Shown here: positions 2,886-17,473 of the stretch, in pieces
Layout: the number at the start of each line of letters is the position of its first letter
Position numbering within the stretch: position 1 is the stretch's first letter
Virus record (IMG/VR): IMGVR_UViG_3300010151_000092
Span: 1 to 30,223 of that record
Length of the DNA stretch: 30,223 bases
Source of the DNA: a virus
Strand: one strand, 5' to 3'
Notes under the pieces: model-generated
Database searches by the model: none
Told to the model about the DNA's origin: nothing
What the model saw: the letters and a program-made list of their open reading frames with translations, nothing else
Made by a program: the position numbers and the translations under genes

Positions 2886-4214
2886 TTAAGGATTCTTGAA
2901 TTCTTGAATTCTTCCTTCAAAAACTGTAACCGCTCCATAGAGCATATCGCAAACAACTTTAGTCCCTAAGAAGTCCACGCTGTATTCAGCTTGAACTCTT
3001 GGCTCTAGTTGTCGAGCTGCGCTAACTGCGCTTGGATGGAATATATATCCCACTTCCACGCCGGTAGACGTTGATGCTCCCATGACTGTAGAATGGAGAA
3101 CTGGCATACCGTAAAGCATTCCAATTTGACCATTCTTTAATCCAGAAGGACCAGCGCCCATTTTAGACGCATCTACGAAGTCGCTGATTCCTAGCATTGC
3201 AGTATACAATGCTGGAGAAACAACAAAATTACACTCATTAGTGTCTACGTCAGCTTCCATCAGAGTTTTCATTCCGCCTCTGATTTCTGCTGCTGTAATT
3301 GTGTTGTCGCCAGCTAAAGCTGTACTGTTTGTGGTAGCTGCTTCGACTTTAGATTCTATGTAAGCATCATAAGTCTTAGCAAGCGCGTAAGCCATCATTT
3401 GTTGCACCAGGCTTTTTATCCTGGATCTTGTCATTTCTAACAAGTATCGGCATATCTTTTCAACTTAGTAAGTTGTCGGAGTCTCTTGGCTGAATTATAT
3501 CTTTTCATCAGCTATGCTCTGCCCCTGACTATGATTATCATAGCCTTCGGTTCGGATTGCCTTACCATCTCTGGTTTAGGTTTCCCGCTTAATACTCCAA
3601 TTTCAAATTGCATAATCACTTATGCACTCGGCATATCCATACCGGAAACTTCTTTCTCAAAAAGCCCTGGAATTGACTGTACAGATGCTATATCTTCTAC
3701 CAATTTTGCAGCGTAACGATGCTGATCGATGCTAAGATCGGATTTCGCATGAGTTGAGGCTGCGTATGTTACAAGTGTTTCTGCTGCTTTAGCCGCATCA
3801 CTTACTTCTGCTAACTTGGGAATATGAAAAGTATCTCCCTTGCCTTTAACAAGACCGTTAAGAGAAGTGTCCACACATTGTTCGAACACAAGATTGCGTT
3901 CTAAATATGCTTTAACTCCATCGGTCCAAATCTCAGGTATAAAATTCAGTTGTTACCGTAAAGGCTTTTTATCCTTTACTTCTTTAAGTTTCCCTAAAGT
4001 TCGGCATATCTTTTCAATCATTTAGATTGTCGCGGCCTCGTGGATCTGTTATTTCAAGATCTATGCTCTGCCCCTGGCTTTCGCCTTCGGTTCGGATTAG
4101 CTTATCTTACGACTTAGCCTTCCCGCTTAATTCCGCGATTTAACGCTGCCAATTTTATTTAGCAGCGGTGGTAGTGGTTACGGATGCACCAGAAAAATTT
4201 TCACTTAGTGCCAT
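2886..4214 (-). CDS. Major capsid protein, three exons interrupted by two group I introns
   Basis: Read as join(4214-4161, 3946-3641, 3395-2886) on the minus strand, the gene encodes 289 residues (18 + 102 + 169). Exon 1 begins MALSENFSGAS and ends at ...TTTTAA. Exon 2 continues NFIPEIWTDGVKAYLERN, a pattern typical of the N-terminal arm of this tailed-phage coat family. Exon 2 ends at VSG and exon 3 resumes MAYALAKTYDAYIESK, the usual conserved helix. All three junctions fall on codon boundaries. Without splicing, translation stops one codon into intron 1 (AAA TAA). It lies between the scaffold gene (4236-4766) and the zinc ribbon, the expected MCP position. Exon 2 has no start of its own except a fortuitous GTG at 3889, so independent fragments are unlikely. 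The start ATG at 4214 has a moderate AAAGG upstream. HK97-fold membership is inferred from family resemblance. Confidence 0.9.
3396..3640 (-). ncRNA. Group I intron 2 in the MCP gene (245 nt, no ORF)
   Basis: On the minus strand the 5' exon ...CCGGT pairs with AUGCCG in the intron (P1, with the U-G at the splice site). A 7-bp P2 hairpin follows (TGCATAA/TTATGCA). P3 is TTGGAGT (3600-3594) with ACTCCGA (3482-3476). P4/Q-like sequence AATCCGAACCGAAGGC and a CTATGA/TCATAG P6 hairpin come next. P7 is GCATA (3517-3513) with TATGC (3454-3450). P8 is CAACTT/AAGTTG (3475-3461) and J8/7 is AAAAGA. The extra hairpin between P7 and P3' suggests subgroup IA. P9-type hairpins include CCAGG/CCTGG. The intron ends in G at 3396; ending 3 nt later (3393) would also keep frame, but P10 favours 3396. 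No endonuclease ORF fits inside. Confidence 0.88.
3947..4160 (-). ncRNA. Group I intron 1 in the MCP gene (214 nt, no ORF)
   Basis: On the minus strand exon 1 ends GCTGCT, pairing with the internal guide GGCAGC (P1, U-G at the splice site). The guide is preceded by AAAATT, which is exactly complementary to AATTTT at the start of exon 2: a perfect 6-bp P10 that fixes both splice sites. P3 is TCGCGG (4138-4133) with CCGCGA (4035-4030). P6 is GGC-GAAA-GCC. P7 is GCATA (4066-4062) with TATGC (4008-4004). P8 is CAATC/GATTG, J8/7 AAAAGA, and P9 GTAAAGG/CCTTTAC. Small hairpins ATCT/AGAT and CC-ACGA-GG between P7 and P3' resemble the P7.1/P7.2 of subgroup IA. The intron ends in G at 3947. It shares several core blocks verbatim with intron 2, so the two are sister introns. 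Confidence 0.92.
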
Positions 4215-14552: not shown

Positions 14553-14649
14553 CTTTCCTCTCTCTTCTTTTTTTAGCTTTATACTCGGCTATTCTCTTCC
14601 TAGCCACTCTCTTCAAATATTTCCTACGTTTTGCAGCTTTATTTGGCAT
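14518..14649 (-). CDS. Very small Arg/Lys-rich protein
   Basis: A 43-residue protein, MPNKAAKRRKYLKRVARKR then more Arg/Lys-rich helix, ending AQEQSAE. It is almost entirely one basic helix, so nucleic acid binding is plausible. ATG 14649 lies inside the last codons of the methyltransferase motif-X frame (11-nt overlap), which suggests translational coupling and indirectly supports expression of that frame. No homologous family is known to me. Confidence 0.5.
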   Translation of the reverse strand: MPNKAAKRRKYLKRVARKRIAEYKAKKRRERKDARKAQEQSAE

Positions 14650-14962
14650 TCAATTTCTCCAATAAAATTCTGATCGCTCTTTCAGCCATCTGCGGCACTA
14701 CACCATTCCCTAGTAATCTCAATCTGTCCACTCGATTGGTAATTGGGTCCACCCCACCGGTAGTCCCATTATCTGTTCCACCCAATTCGGATTGAGTTTC
14801 CCTGACGATTGATTGCTCAACGCTGTCCCCCCTTGCTTGTACCTCTTCTTTCGATACCCTGTATCGTCCGAGCATGGAGTGGTCCACGACTCTTGGCTCT
14901 TCCCACTCGTGTTGCTCTTGCCCTGGTCTTGCAGGCCATCCATCATTCTCTTTGGTTTCCAT
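14639..14962 (-). CDS. C5-cytosine methyltransferase, C-terminal motif X segment
   Basis: The last 35 or so residues, TNRVDRLRLLGNGVVPQMAE, are the conserved motif X end of phage C5-cytosine methyltransferases. They lie in the same frame as the catalytic N-terminus (15737-16282) but a different frame from the segment between. In the family, ...MGLPVGWT is followed directly by a TNRVDRL-type sequence; here the two halves overlap in different frames near 14755-14770, and reading CCA after GGG TGG ACC, a one-base step back at CCC, would join them. ATG 14962 has AAGAGG 7 nt upstream, so separate translation is formally possible, but its first 70 residues look like a shadow of the middle frame. 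Confidence 0.55.
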   Translation of the reverse strand: METKENDGWPARPGQEQHEWEEPRVVDHSMLGRYRVSKEEVQARGDSVEQSIVRETQSELGGTDNGTTGGVDPITNRVDRLRLLGNGVVPQMAERAIRILLEKLNAK

Positions 14963-15795
14963 TCGATAACCTCTTCGTATATTAGTTCATCATTAAATCT
15001 TATATCGCTTAGAAATGGCTTTATGGTATACCAATCCTCAATAGATGGGTAGCTAAATCCAGAGGTGTCGTATCGAAACCAATGTTCTATAGTGCTTTTT
15101 TTTATATCTGTTTTATCATCTAATTCTTTAATACTGGTTTGTCCTCTTAAATAATCCACAAACTCTTTTTGCTCTGGCAACCGAGTCCTTTGTTTCATTA
15201 TAGATATATTTTGTATTAATATGTCTAAATCTGGATGATTTCTTAACTCTTCCATAGTTACATGATCACCTAAAGTAATTTGCACGCTTTCCCCACTATG
15301 CCTTATAACCTTACCACTAAGTAGTCTAAGCGCGTAATTGAACCGATCTTTATTCTGAGCATCCATCTGAGTTGGTGTTCTCCAGTTTTTAACCTCTTCA
15401 CCTAAAACTTTACCACCAGTTCCAGGTTTTCTGCTCCCTGGATTTCCTGCTCTTGGTGTCGGCCAATTCTTTTCATTTTCGTACTCGACTACAGCATCAA
15501 GCCTTGCTCCAAACTTCGTTCCAGTTTTATTACTAACTCTAGCATATCCTCTTTCTGTTTCTTTAATAGTACCATGCCCGCCTTTATAATCTCTACCTGC
15601 TGGTGTAGGCCAATTCTTTTCCTCATAAGTCTCCACCGCATCCCTCAGTTTTGCACCAAAGTATTGATTAGATTTCTTTCGTAAACTCTTAAATCCACCT
15701 TCAGTTAAAATTGTATTAATTCTACCGCCCTCACCATCACTCAGCTTTGCTGTAGGCCATGATAAACACTCTCTTCCGCTGGTGTGGAGCGCCAA
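14719..15795 (-). CDS. C5-cytosine methyltransferase, variable/target-recognition segment in a shifted frame
   Basis: The coding signal starts near 15759 and runs about 345 codons. It shows repeated WPTP-type phrases (SWPTAKLSDGEGG, NWPTPAGRDYKGG, NWPTPRAGNPGSR, NWRTPTQMDAQNKDR) normally found between motifs VIII and X of phage Dcm-like enzymes. It then has a small HTH-like recognition region (TSIKELDDKTDIKKSTIEHW, FSYPSIEDWYTIK) and ends LNPNWVEQIMGLPVGWT. It is +1 relative to the catalytic frame. The frame is open all the way to ATG 16284, but its N-terminal third is only a shadow. The TTG at 15795 is an arbitrary upstream limit, not a supported start. It is either a recoded or broken single gene, or a separate recognition subunit. 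Confidence 0.6.
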   Translation of the reverse strand: MALHTSGRECLSWPTAKLSDGEGGRINTILTEGGFKSLRKKSNQYFGAKLRDAVETYEEKNWPTPAGRDYKGGHGTIKETERGYARVSNKTGTKFGARLDAVVEYENEKNWPTPRAGNPGSRKPGTGGKVLGEEVKNWRTPTQMDAQNKDRFNYALRLLSGKVIRHSGESVQITLGDHVTMEELRNHPDLDILIQNISIMKQRTRLPEQKEFVDYLRGQTSIKELDDKTDIKKSTIEHWFRYDTSGFSYPSIEDWYTIKPFLSDIRFNDELIYEEVIEWKPKRMMDGLQDQGKSNTSGKSQESWTTPCSDDTGYRKKRYKQGGTALSNQSSGKLNPNWVEQIMGLPVGWTQLPIEWTD

Positions 15796-16282
15796 CTTCA
15801 GCCGCAGAGAATACTCCCCACGCAGTCTTGTAACCTCTTTCTTCCAAATCTCCGAGGACATACTTGAGTACCGACTCCCCATCGGCTGTTTTGCTTGAGA
15901 TAATCCCTTCGACATTTTCGAGAATAACATAAGTTGGTCTGCACTCTGAGATTCCTCTTGCGATAAAGGGGTAAAGGTGTCTAGGATCTTCTGTGGAACC
16001 TCTGCGACCAGCGGCGCTGAATGGCTGGCAAGGGAATCCCGCTGATAAGAAGTCCACTCTGCCACAAAATTCTTTATATGGGAAGGTTTTAAGATCCGTG
16101 TAGATAGGCGCTGGATGTAAGTGACCCTCTTCCATCTTCGAGACCAGGTTTGCCACTGCGTAAACTTCGATTTCGCAGTAAGCGACCTCTCGGACATTCG
16201 GGAAAATTCTTCGCAGTCCTCGACCAATCCCTTCGTAGCCAGTACAGAGTGATAAGTGGGTAAGTTCTTGGGTATTATCCAC
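15737..16282 (-). CDS. C5-cytosine DNA methyltransferase, catalytic N-terminal segment
   Basis: A 181-residue frame with motif I (SLCTGYEGIGRGL, residues 11-23), motif IV GFPCQPFS with the catalytic Cys 85, motif VI ENVEG (Glu 122), and motif VIII QRKRVF (168-173). These residues bind S-adenosylmethionine and attack C6 of cytosine. The frame stops soon after motif VIII (MAYSKAE then TGA), where family members continue into the variable region; that region is present just downstream in the +1 frame. GTG 16282 overlaps the exonuclease stop. In a phage this enzyme would protect its DNA from host restriction. Whether it is active as encoded depends on the frame breaks. Confidence 0.85.
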   Translation of the reverse strand: MDNTQELTHLSLCTGYEGIGRGLRRIFPNVREVAYCEIEVYAVANLVSKMEEGHLHPAPIYTDLKTFPYKEFCGRVDFLSAGFPCQPFSAAGRRGSTEDPRHLYPFIARGISECRPTYVILENVEGIISSKTADGESVLKYVLGDLEERGYKTAWGVFSAAEVGAPHQRKRVFIMAYSKAE

Positions 16283-16283
16283 A

Positions 16284-16931
16284 TTATATCTCTTTATGCA
16301 GCTTATCTAATTCCATGCAGCATTGAAAAACCTTCCATCCCCAGTCAAGCTGCTGCTTACTAACAAAATGATGCGAGAAGGCACCAGAATTCTTATCCAA
16401 CTTCAAGATCATCGCAGATCCTATCTTCGCCTTCGGCTGCAACTCAATATACATTTTACGGTAAGCGGCCAGTTGGCACGTCATTTCTGGGTAGATTCCG
16501 CGAGACGTTTTAAAATCGCCTAAGACCAAAGCGCCATTGATCCTGGCTACAAAATCTGTGGTCCCACCAACCTCATATTTTTCACTAACCATCTTTAGTT
16601 CTATTGCCTCATACTTCGGTCTTGTCATCTTCTCCCATTCCAAATATCCTAAAAAAGCATTCTCAGCTTTTTCTATTTGCTCCGCAGAATAATCAGTCAT
16701 ATCTGGCTCTTCGCCCTTAATATGGCTCTCGCATAAATAATGAGCTAGGGTCCCTATGGTCCCAGCCTCTTTTAATACTGCATCTGGATCCTCTCCAGCT
16801 AAGGCCGTTCGTTTGGCCCAGGCCATCAATACATTCTTATTCCAGCCCAGGTTATTTAATATGGTCGTTACGCCTTTGACCCTTCGGCCATCTTGTAGTC
16901 TATACGCTGTATGCGCTTTCGTTTTTGCCAT
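16284..16931 (-). CDS. PD-(D/E)XK exonuclease (RecB/Cas4-like)
   Basis: A 215-residue nuclease. The conserved order of the family is visible: IGTLAHYLCE (His 64), Glu 111 in EAIELKMVSE, VGGTTDFVA (Asp 126), LVLGDFKTS (Asp 139, Lys 141), and CQLAAY (Gln 153, Tyr 157). This is the RecB/Cas4-type site for metal-dependent end resection. With SSB and a resolvase in the same operon it suggests phage-encoded recombination or DNA-end processing, though no annealing protein is recognised. Its stop overlaps the methyltransferase start. ATG 16931 has a weak SD. Confidence 0.85.
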   Translation of the reverse strand: MAKTKAHTAYRLQDGRRVKGVTTILNNLGWNKNVLMAWAKRTALAGEDPDAVLKEAGTIGTLAHYLCESHIKGEEPDMTDYSAEQIEKAENAFLGYLEWEKMTRPKYEAIELKMVSEKYEVGGTTDFVARINGALVLGDFKTSRGIYPEMTCQLAAYRKMYIELQPKAKIGSAMILKLDKNSGAFSHHFVSKQQLDWGWKVFQCCMELDKLHKEI

Positions 16932-17055
16932 TATTCATTATTGCCCACAATCGCTTGCGCAACCGTTGGCATTCCTTTCCTTCTTCGGTCCTCTTACGAA
17001 TAAGTGTCTTGTATACTCTAACTATCTGGTAATATCTAGTTGGCTTTTTTCGCAA
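16900..17055 (-). CDS. Possible small basic protein
   Basis: A 51-residue frame from TTG 17055, MRKKPTRYYQIVRVYKTLIR then KRTEEGKECQRLRKRLW, ending NESAYSV. It is highly basic and predicted helical. It overlaps the GIY-YIG gene by 20 nt and the exonuclease by 32 nt, filling an otherwise empty gap. No family is recognised, and the start lacks a strong SD. Confidence 0.33.
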   Translation of the reverse strand: MRKKPTRYYQIVRVYKTLIRKRTEEGKECQRLRKRLWAIMNNGKNESAYSV

Positions 17056-17473
17056 TTTGAATCCATTTTTTTAAACTTTTTCTTAGCGCATCATTAACAA
17101 TGCGGCTTACTGGTACATCTTTGATCGCAGCCTTAATCTTTAGCGCATTATAAACATCAATATTTATTTCGCTATTGAATCGCTTGGTCTTATTCTCGAA
17201 TGTCTTTATATATTCTTTATTTTGAGCTGGTTTTAATCTTTGAATTAGCCTTTTTTCTATAGCCTGAGCCTTTTCAAGACTTACACAAATTTTAAATTTT
17301 GCGTACTTATGTTCTTTTTCATGTGTTTTAATTCGATCAAAAATCCGAGTGGAATGACCAATATATATAAGGCCACTTTCATCGTATAAGGCATAAACTC
17401 CGGTCATTTTTTTATGACCAAGGCTCTCTTCATTAAGACTGCCATATGTATACCAGCGATGAAACAATATCAT
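17036..17473 (-). CDS. GIY-YIG nuclease with C-terminal ribbon-helix-helix domain
   Basis: A 145-residue protein. Residues 24-86 form a GIY-YIG domain: TGVYALYDESGLIYIGHS gives the GVY and YIG elements, Arg 47 lies in RIFDRIKTH, Glu 73 in AQAIEKRLIQRL, and Asn 85 in KPAQN. These are the expected catalytic and metal-binding positions. Residues 98-136 (KRFNSEINIDVYNALKIK, VPVSRIVNDALRKSL) form an RHH/Arc-type DNA-binding motif. This layout of nuclease plus DNA-binding tail is that of homing endonucleases and Seg-type freestanding nucleases. It overlaps the DUF1599 gene by 1 nt. A repair nuclease is the alternative. It could act in trans on the intron-bearing capsid locus. Confidence 0.78.
   Translation of the reverse strand: MILFHRWYTYGSLNEESLGHKKMTGVYALYDESGLIYIGHSTRIFDRIKTHEKEHKYAKFKICVSLEKAQAIEKRLIQRLKPAQNKEYIKTFENKTKRFNSEINIDVYNALKIKAAIKDVPVSRIVNDALRKSLKKWIQIAKKAN

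Follow-up and report, generated by a model that had tools for sequence, protein, structure and literature searches.

Reading frame and exons of the capsid gene

How can a small uncultured phage obtain its major capsid protein (MCP) from a gene whose reading frame closes almost as soon as it opens? The question is raised by the minus strand of the window, the whole stretch of DNA analysed here (an IMG/VR virus record of 30,223 bases), where the frame that starts at position 4214 meets a stop after 18 codons and one intron codon. In the explanation that we favour, with a probability of about 90%, the MCP gene is interrupted by two compact, mobile group I introns (A and B) lacking open reading frames (ORFs), whose self-splicing would restore the protein. 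The gene is composed of the following parts, with scores for introns from Rfam RF00028 and from a covariance model, R1, described below.

4161-4214, minus strand: MCP exon 1 (E1), 54 nt, 18 codons, MALSENFSGASVTTTTAA
3947-4160, minus strand: intron A, ORF-less group I intron, 214 nt, codon 18, phase 0; R1 218 bits, RF00028 28.3 bits
3641-3946, minus strand: MCP exon 2 (E2), 306 nt, 102 codons, NFIPEIW...EVSG
3396-3640, minus strand: intron B, ORF-less group I intron, 245 nt, codon 120, phase 0; R1 240 bits, RF00028 21.0 bits
2886-3395, minus strand: MCP exon 3 (E3), 510 nt, 169 codons plus stop, MAYALAK...FKNP; phrog_267 E=5e-22

Joined, the three exons form a frame of 870 nt, stop codon included, that stays open throughout and specifies 289 residues. 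A preliminary description of this DNA had placed the exon ends at 4161/3946 and 3641/3395 and predicted a single 289-residue protein upon exact removal of both inserts; the ends are right to the base and the prediction is borne out, as is the identification of the split gene as that of the major capsid protein. The phrog_267 major head protein is matched separately by exon 3 and by exon 2 (E=6e-6), 297 phage records cover at least 80% of the joined MCP, and alignments with annotated capsid proteins from cultured phages span about 90% of it, no cultured isolate exceeding about 32% identity. A terminase gene lies upstream of the MCP gene and an integrase gene is also present in the window. A search of the window for tRNAs found none, and a scan of genome contigs for a host gave no relative. 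An AlphaFold model of an intronless MCP, with 18 relatives as input, reached a pLDDT of 38.8 and was too poor for use.

Empty sites and intron positions in relatives

A search of IMG/VR with exon 3 yielded 63 loci, mostly 75-100% identical, all of them on metagenome contigs, some of which are short. Comparison with intronless relatives had been set beforehand as a check on the exon joints, and the same MCP is indeed found uninterrupted in relatives about 95% identical; splice-aware protein-to-DNA alignment gives a one-piece MCP in many of them (for example L009, L010, L015-L017 and L022). Exact empty versions of the two junctions of the window, with third codon positions left free, occur in 8 and 15 contigs, which indicates that the inserts are precise.

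In other relatives the MCP contains inserts, 211-258 nt long, that follow codon 17 or 18, 20, 23, 57, 100, 120, 131, 216, 234 or 264; the exon before each insert ends in T and the insert itself in G, in L004 after resolution by hand. There are about 11 intron sites in the MCP of this phage group and up to four introns in one gene, a number reached in both L053 and L059. The joints on codon boundaries that had been pointed out in the window are real, but they are not a rule, since the relatives have four phase-2 sites.

Individual copies show some peculiarities. The intron at 688-928 of L004 looks recombinant, with a 5' part resembling the codon 17 type of L005 and a 3' part resembling the codon 18 type of L001; the predicted MCP of this contig is one alanine short, and an assembly chimera is possible. 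The codon 20 intron of L030, L035 and L038 is of a clearly different group I type, 25-37% identical to the rest, which suggests that the capsid gene was entered by more than one intron lineage. Immediately ahead of the 3' splice site, an extra hairpin of about 30 nt is seen in the L058 introns at codons 18 (1846-2097) and 57 (2205-2470) and in the codon 57 intron of L053 (2564-2829), while the codon 18 intron of L053 is devoid of it.

Fold and class of introns A and B

Both inserts contain the core elements named in the preliminary description: P3, P7 in the form GCATA/TATGC, P8, J8/7 AAAAGA, the U.G pair at the splice site and a terminal G. The strands of the putative guanosine site are located as follows.

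4062-4066, minus strand: intron A, P7 5' strand GCAUA
4004-4008, minus strand: intron A, P7 3' strand UAUGC, with J8/7 AAAAGA just before it (4009-4014)
3513-3517, minus strand: intron B, P7 5' strand GCAUA
3450-3454, minus strand: intron B, P7 3' strand UAUGC, with J8/7 AAAAGA just before it (3455-3460)

When 28 related introns are aligned and P3, P4, P5, P6, P6a, P7, P7.1, P8 and P9 are treated as stems, pairing holds in 96.7% of the core cells and 22 of the 34 pairs show double-sided changes; as the structure was written from intron B, the percentage is favoured, the double-sided changes much less so. Compensatory changes are found in P3, P4, P6, P7, P7.1, P8 and P9. Pairing reaches 99-100% in P3, P4, P6, P7 and P8, each with compensatory changes, and the P7.1 stem is 100% paired with covariation in all four of its pairs. 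P7, the pseudoknotted guanosine site, is paired in 100% of cells in spite of its several forms (GCAUA/UAUGC, GCGUA/UACGC and GACUA/UAGUC). The covariation score is 0.545, against 0.183 after shuffling (0/500) and at most 0.111 with the partners slid.

The covariance model R1 was built from this alignment without P7, and introns A and B both belong to its training set. It finds exactly two introns in the window, with 240 bits for B and 218 bits for A, scores that are if anything too low because the P7.1 register of the model was off by one. The Rfam check proposed for the two inserts had a mixed outcome: no match to either intron is obtained at the gathering score, while below the cut-off of 50 bits RF00028 recovers both from the 861-nt region, intron A with 28.3 bits (E=4e-5) and intron B with 21.0 bits (E=0.0065). 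The gathering score is the sensitivity cut-off of one generic model and not a structural defining feature. A search of the genome containing intron A with an exact, fixed-spacing pattern of that intron gave no match, owing to a difference in spacing.

A U precedes each intron and would form the U.G pair with the guide, and the terminal G (omega G) ends all resolved introns. No nuclease ORF, hence no homing endonuclease, was found inside the MCP introns, which at 211-258 nt have no room for one. The fold, the covariation, the pairing between guide and exon and the empty sites agree in supporting the earlier reading of A and B as ORF-less group I introns. The P7.1 stem and the general shape, though not a subgroup-specific model, provisionally point to subgroup IA. 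Introns A and B would be two members of one compact, ORF-less, IA-like family found mainly in phage capsid genes. Each would fold around P3-P8/P4-P6, with its guanosine site in P7, and would probably excise itself from the MCP transcript in the two standard transesterification steps, precise ligation restoring the single 289-residue MCP. Certain phage introns undergo splicing in cells only.

Guides, splice sites and in-frame stops

The elements that would define the splice sites, and the stops that follow the 5' splice sites, are these.

4144-4150, minus strand: intron A, internal guide GGCAGCG, 7 bp with the exon end CGCUGCU, U.G at the splice site
4151-4156, minus strand: intron A, P10 strand AAAAUU, pairing with the exon 2 start AAUUUU
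4155-4157, minus strand: intron A, in-frame stop UAA, 3 nt after the 5' splice site
3629-3632, minus strand: intron B, internal guide GCCG, 4 bp with the exon end CGGU
3620-3622, minus strand: intron B, in-frame UAA stop within the P2 hairpin, 18 nt past the 5' splice site

At all sites a U.G pair is accompanied by a guide complementary to the exon, P1 averaging 5.4 bp at the introns' own sites against 3.1 bp at random U sites. The guide tracks the exon: at codon 18, in the window and its relatives, the combinations CGCUGCU/GGCAGCG, AGCUGCU/GGCAGCU and UGCCGCU/GGCGGCA are found, and in the wider family GCC guides occur at GGU sites and GGC guides at GCU sites. In most codon 18 copies P10 amounts to 8 bp of continuous pairing. 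The 5' splice site would be set by the U.G pair that ends a P1 of 3-7 bp and the 3' splice site by the terminal G, with a P10 of up to 8 bp at site 18.

Intron B contains GATATGCCGA in its P1 strand (about 3628-3637) and again in the 3' region of P7 (about 3448-3457), a repeat that may permit mispairing or be a coincidence.

The first stop in the frame of the upstream exon falls 3-19 nt past the 5' splice site, before the core, in 29 of 29 introns, a count that is not one of independent cases because many of the introns share ancestry. The position follows the phase of the site: introns at codons 120, 216 and 264 (phase 0) have the UAA of the P2 hairpin at 18 nt, and those at codons 100 and 234 (phase 2) have a spacer one base longer, which places the UAA at 19 nt, again in frame. 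In a wider survey, where only rows with the motif 90-100 nt before P7 were read as P2, the P2 stop is in frame in nearly all rows, distant MCPs included. Work on introns of phage T4 reportedly pointed to a disturbance of folding by ribosomes that run into the intron. The likely role of the stop would be to halt ribosomes before they reach the ribozyme core, leaving the core able to fold.

Concentration in capsid genes

In MCP-centred loci totalling 383 kb R1 gives 40 matches, every one of them within the MCP gene and in its orientation, and in 33 whole contigs (10-38 kb) the 25 introns found, distributed over 21 contigs, are all at the MCP. A motif scan of IMG/VR, blind to the MCP but using a motif itself derived from MCP introns, gave at least 131 loci, with the intron within an MCP gene in 105 among the matches listed; owing to the origin of the motif and to its basis in the matches listed, this share of 80% is a biased estimate. 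Among the matches listed, the MCP loci comprise 82 of the phrog_267 type, 12 distantly related (hhalign 86-95%), 9 of the SU10 type, which is a separate family (phrog_1328, Pfam SU10_MCP), and 2 others. The other 26 loci, partly judged by eye, concern terminase, reductase, polymerase, dUTPase, tape-measure and other genes, and some of them adjoin nuclease ORFs. The two introns of the window are one instance of a capsid-gene intron hotspot, a context that the preliminary description had no means of seeing.

Among the loci recovered, the SU10-type capsid genes of L110, L112, L116 and L125 have tandem introns separated by exons of only about 22 nt, and L113 has three introns in a short gene for a membrane-protein-like product. 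The same intron family is also seen near the terminase genes of window-related phages (L065, L142 and L150); in L142 and L150 the intron appears to interrupt the gene for the small terminase subunit.

Gain, loss and movement of the introns

An encoded endonuclease is commonly regarded as a requirement for the spread of group I introns, and the case for reverse splicing in nature has come largely from the phylogeny of introns in ribosomal RNA genes. On a tree of 47 non-redundant MCP genes intron presence is patchy, with 26 of the 47 free of introns; codon 18 alone accounts for eight state changes, among which gain and loss are indistinguishable on the tree. Presence also varies at very short range, some of the entries being very recent. 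The contigs L030, L035, L037 and L038 are about 99.6% identical over an overlap of almost 5 kb, yet they differ in their introns: codon 20 alone is occupied in L030, codons 20 and 131 in L035, and codons 20, 57 and 131 in L038, and L037, which is truncated, has the intron at 131 with part of that at 20. The introns are probably gained and lost as near-neutral mobile DNA.

Intron B is the clearest case of a copy that would have taken up a second site within its gene. It is about 98% identical to the intron that L043 and L044 have at the same site, codon 120. Its twin at codon 216 in L055-L057 is 97% identical, although the MCP of those contigs shares no more than about 70-85% identity with that of the window. 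Codon 216, empty in the window MCP, is the best of 853 positions for a match to the target of intron B, which supports sequence-guided movement to a second site. The two targets, TTTCCGGT followed across the insertion point by ATGGC at codon 120 and TTTACGGT followed by ATGCC at codon 216 (as RNA, UUUACGGU followed by AUGCC), share 11 of 13 bases. P1 requires only GGU or GCU before the splice site, which would occasionally let a copy insert at a further matching position of the gene. Intron B has a P1 of just 4 bp, which is equalled by 72 of the 231 U sites in an intronless MCP; the guide alone therefore cannot explain the choice of codon 216.

The introns may have moved either with the help of a nuclease acting in trans or by reverse splicing, both of which are possible. 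A plausible route, to which we give somewhat less than an even chance, is movement between sites and phages at the DNA level by a homing endonuclease encoded elsewhere (collaborative homing), with ORF-less introns hitching on its cuts and relaxed specificity producing the ectopic sites. The match between the codon 120 and 216 targets extends beyond the needs of P1, which could point to a DNA endonuclease, insertion sites fall in conserved stretches (p=0.009), and related introns in larger phages adjoin nuclease genes. The window also has a free-standing GIY-YIG gene (17036-17473, PF01541), but it lies far from the MCP, and among the relatives represented by long contigs it occurs whether or not the MCP has introns; a resident nuclease was for this reason rejected as the explanation for which contigs hold introns. 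Few HNH genes are present (in 3 of 34 contigs at E<=0.001, two of these over the cut-off) and the MCP introns themselves are without a nuclease ORF.

Spread by reverse splicing of the excised intron RNA into abundant MCP mRNA, with reverse transcription and then recombination, is a more tentative proposal. It would account for the minimal GGU or GCU target rule with its matching guide, for twins that occupy two sites in one gene, of which the second is the position with the best match, and for the concentration in what is presumably the most abundant late transcript. On the other hand, it requires a reverse transcriptase and does not predict the target similarity upstream of P1. In a review, reverse splicing is treated as a proposed route that needs four to six complementary bases (PMC3984707). 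A stronger version, rather unlikely in our estimation, would have a nuclease-less lineage specialised on phage capsid genes and multiplying there by RNA-level reverse splicing, with the abundant capsid mRNA as target, a loose guide of 3-4 nt (GGU/GCU) and a stop matched to the phase of each site.

It is improbable that the introns are kept as regulators, a need for guanosine and for free intron RNA delaying capsid output or tuning it to the state of the host. The in-frame stops would let unspliced RNA give a truncated product only, and introns of other phage genes have been proposed to work as a GTP-sensing switch (PMC11878797). Against this, the sites vary freely, about half of the non-redundant relatives have no intron, as noted above, and near-identical phages do without the same introns, for which last reason regulation was rejected as the main reason for their presence. 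That the inserts are not spliced at all, the MCP gene being decayed or giving a split-protein or frameshift product, would agree with Rfam scores below the cut-off but is highly improbable, since the exons keep uninterrupted coding and conserved protein sequence, the ribozyme cores covary, exon 1 has merely 18 codons and the architecture recurs in independent samples.

Comparison with known systems

The preliminary description considered a capsid gene dependent on two introns unusual, a judgement tempered by capsid introns already published (PMC7886860, PMC3706429). The MCP gene of the Cluster J mycobacteriophage LittleE contains a probable group I intron whose splicing in vivo was established by RT-PCR and protein sequencing, and the tail intron of BAKA, of the same cluster, is 265 bp long and ORF-less (PMC3706429). 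The introns described here resemble the first in their host gene and the second in being short and without an ORF, but that of LittleE is about 820 bp long with a nuclease ORF and is the only one in its gene, and no multi-site hotspot was described (PMC3706429). The lactococcal phage Tuc2009 also has a group I intron in a capsid subunit gene, according to a citation in PMC3706429.

The crAss-like phages of the Delta and Zeta groups have group I introns in the MCP gene, which in one Zeta phage is in five fragments, and thus share with the window an MCP split by several such introns (PMC7886860). In that example nuclease signatures revealed domains characteristic of group I introns in three of the four intervening segments; the family is intron-dense, with genomes of 145-192 kb and introns across many core genes (PMC7886860). 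Here, by contrast, the sequence is about 30 kb long and the introns are ORF-less, located in the contigs scanned in the MCP alone. The introns of Twort and the Bastillevirinae are of IA type, the subgroup provisionally assigned to those of the window, with several per gene and some without a homing endonuclease gene (HEG), but they occupy polymerase, reductase and terminase genes rather than capsid genes, average 802 nt and mostly bear a HEG (PMC11878797). The 3' part of intron A is up to about 87% like introns of split terL genes in Staphylococcus phage SA2 and related cultured phages (blastn), a likeness that covers part of the intron only and concerns another host gene; it suggests the same broad ribozyme lineage.

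Introns in capsid genes are therefore already known (LittleE, Tuc2009, crAss-like phages), and what is new is a compact ORF-less family concentrated in them; no published family of this kind was found in the literature searched, outside which most subscription journals lie. With one gene of 870 nt, eleven sites, near-identical phages with and without introns and a twin at the best-matching target, the MCP constitutes a compact natural system in which the ectopic movement of ORF-less group I introns can be put to the test. In uncultured phages, gene callers and marker-gene surveys may break up capsid genes or overlook them, and the general Rfam model, used at its cut-off, misses introns of the MCP type.

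Elsewhere in the window, at 14639-16284, a cytosine-C5 methylase is apparently spread over three frames, with an N-terminal part at 16282-15737 (PF00145), a 521-aa ORF in another frame extending to 14719 and a motif resembling the C-terminus in 14962-14639; this could represent a decayed gene, frameshifts or another insertion.
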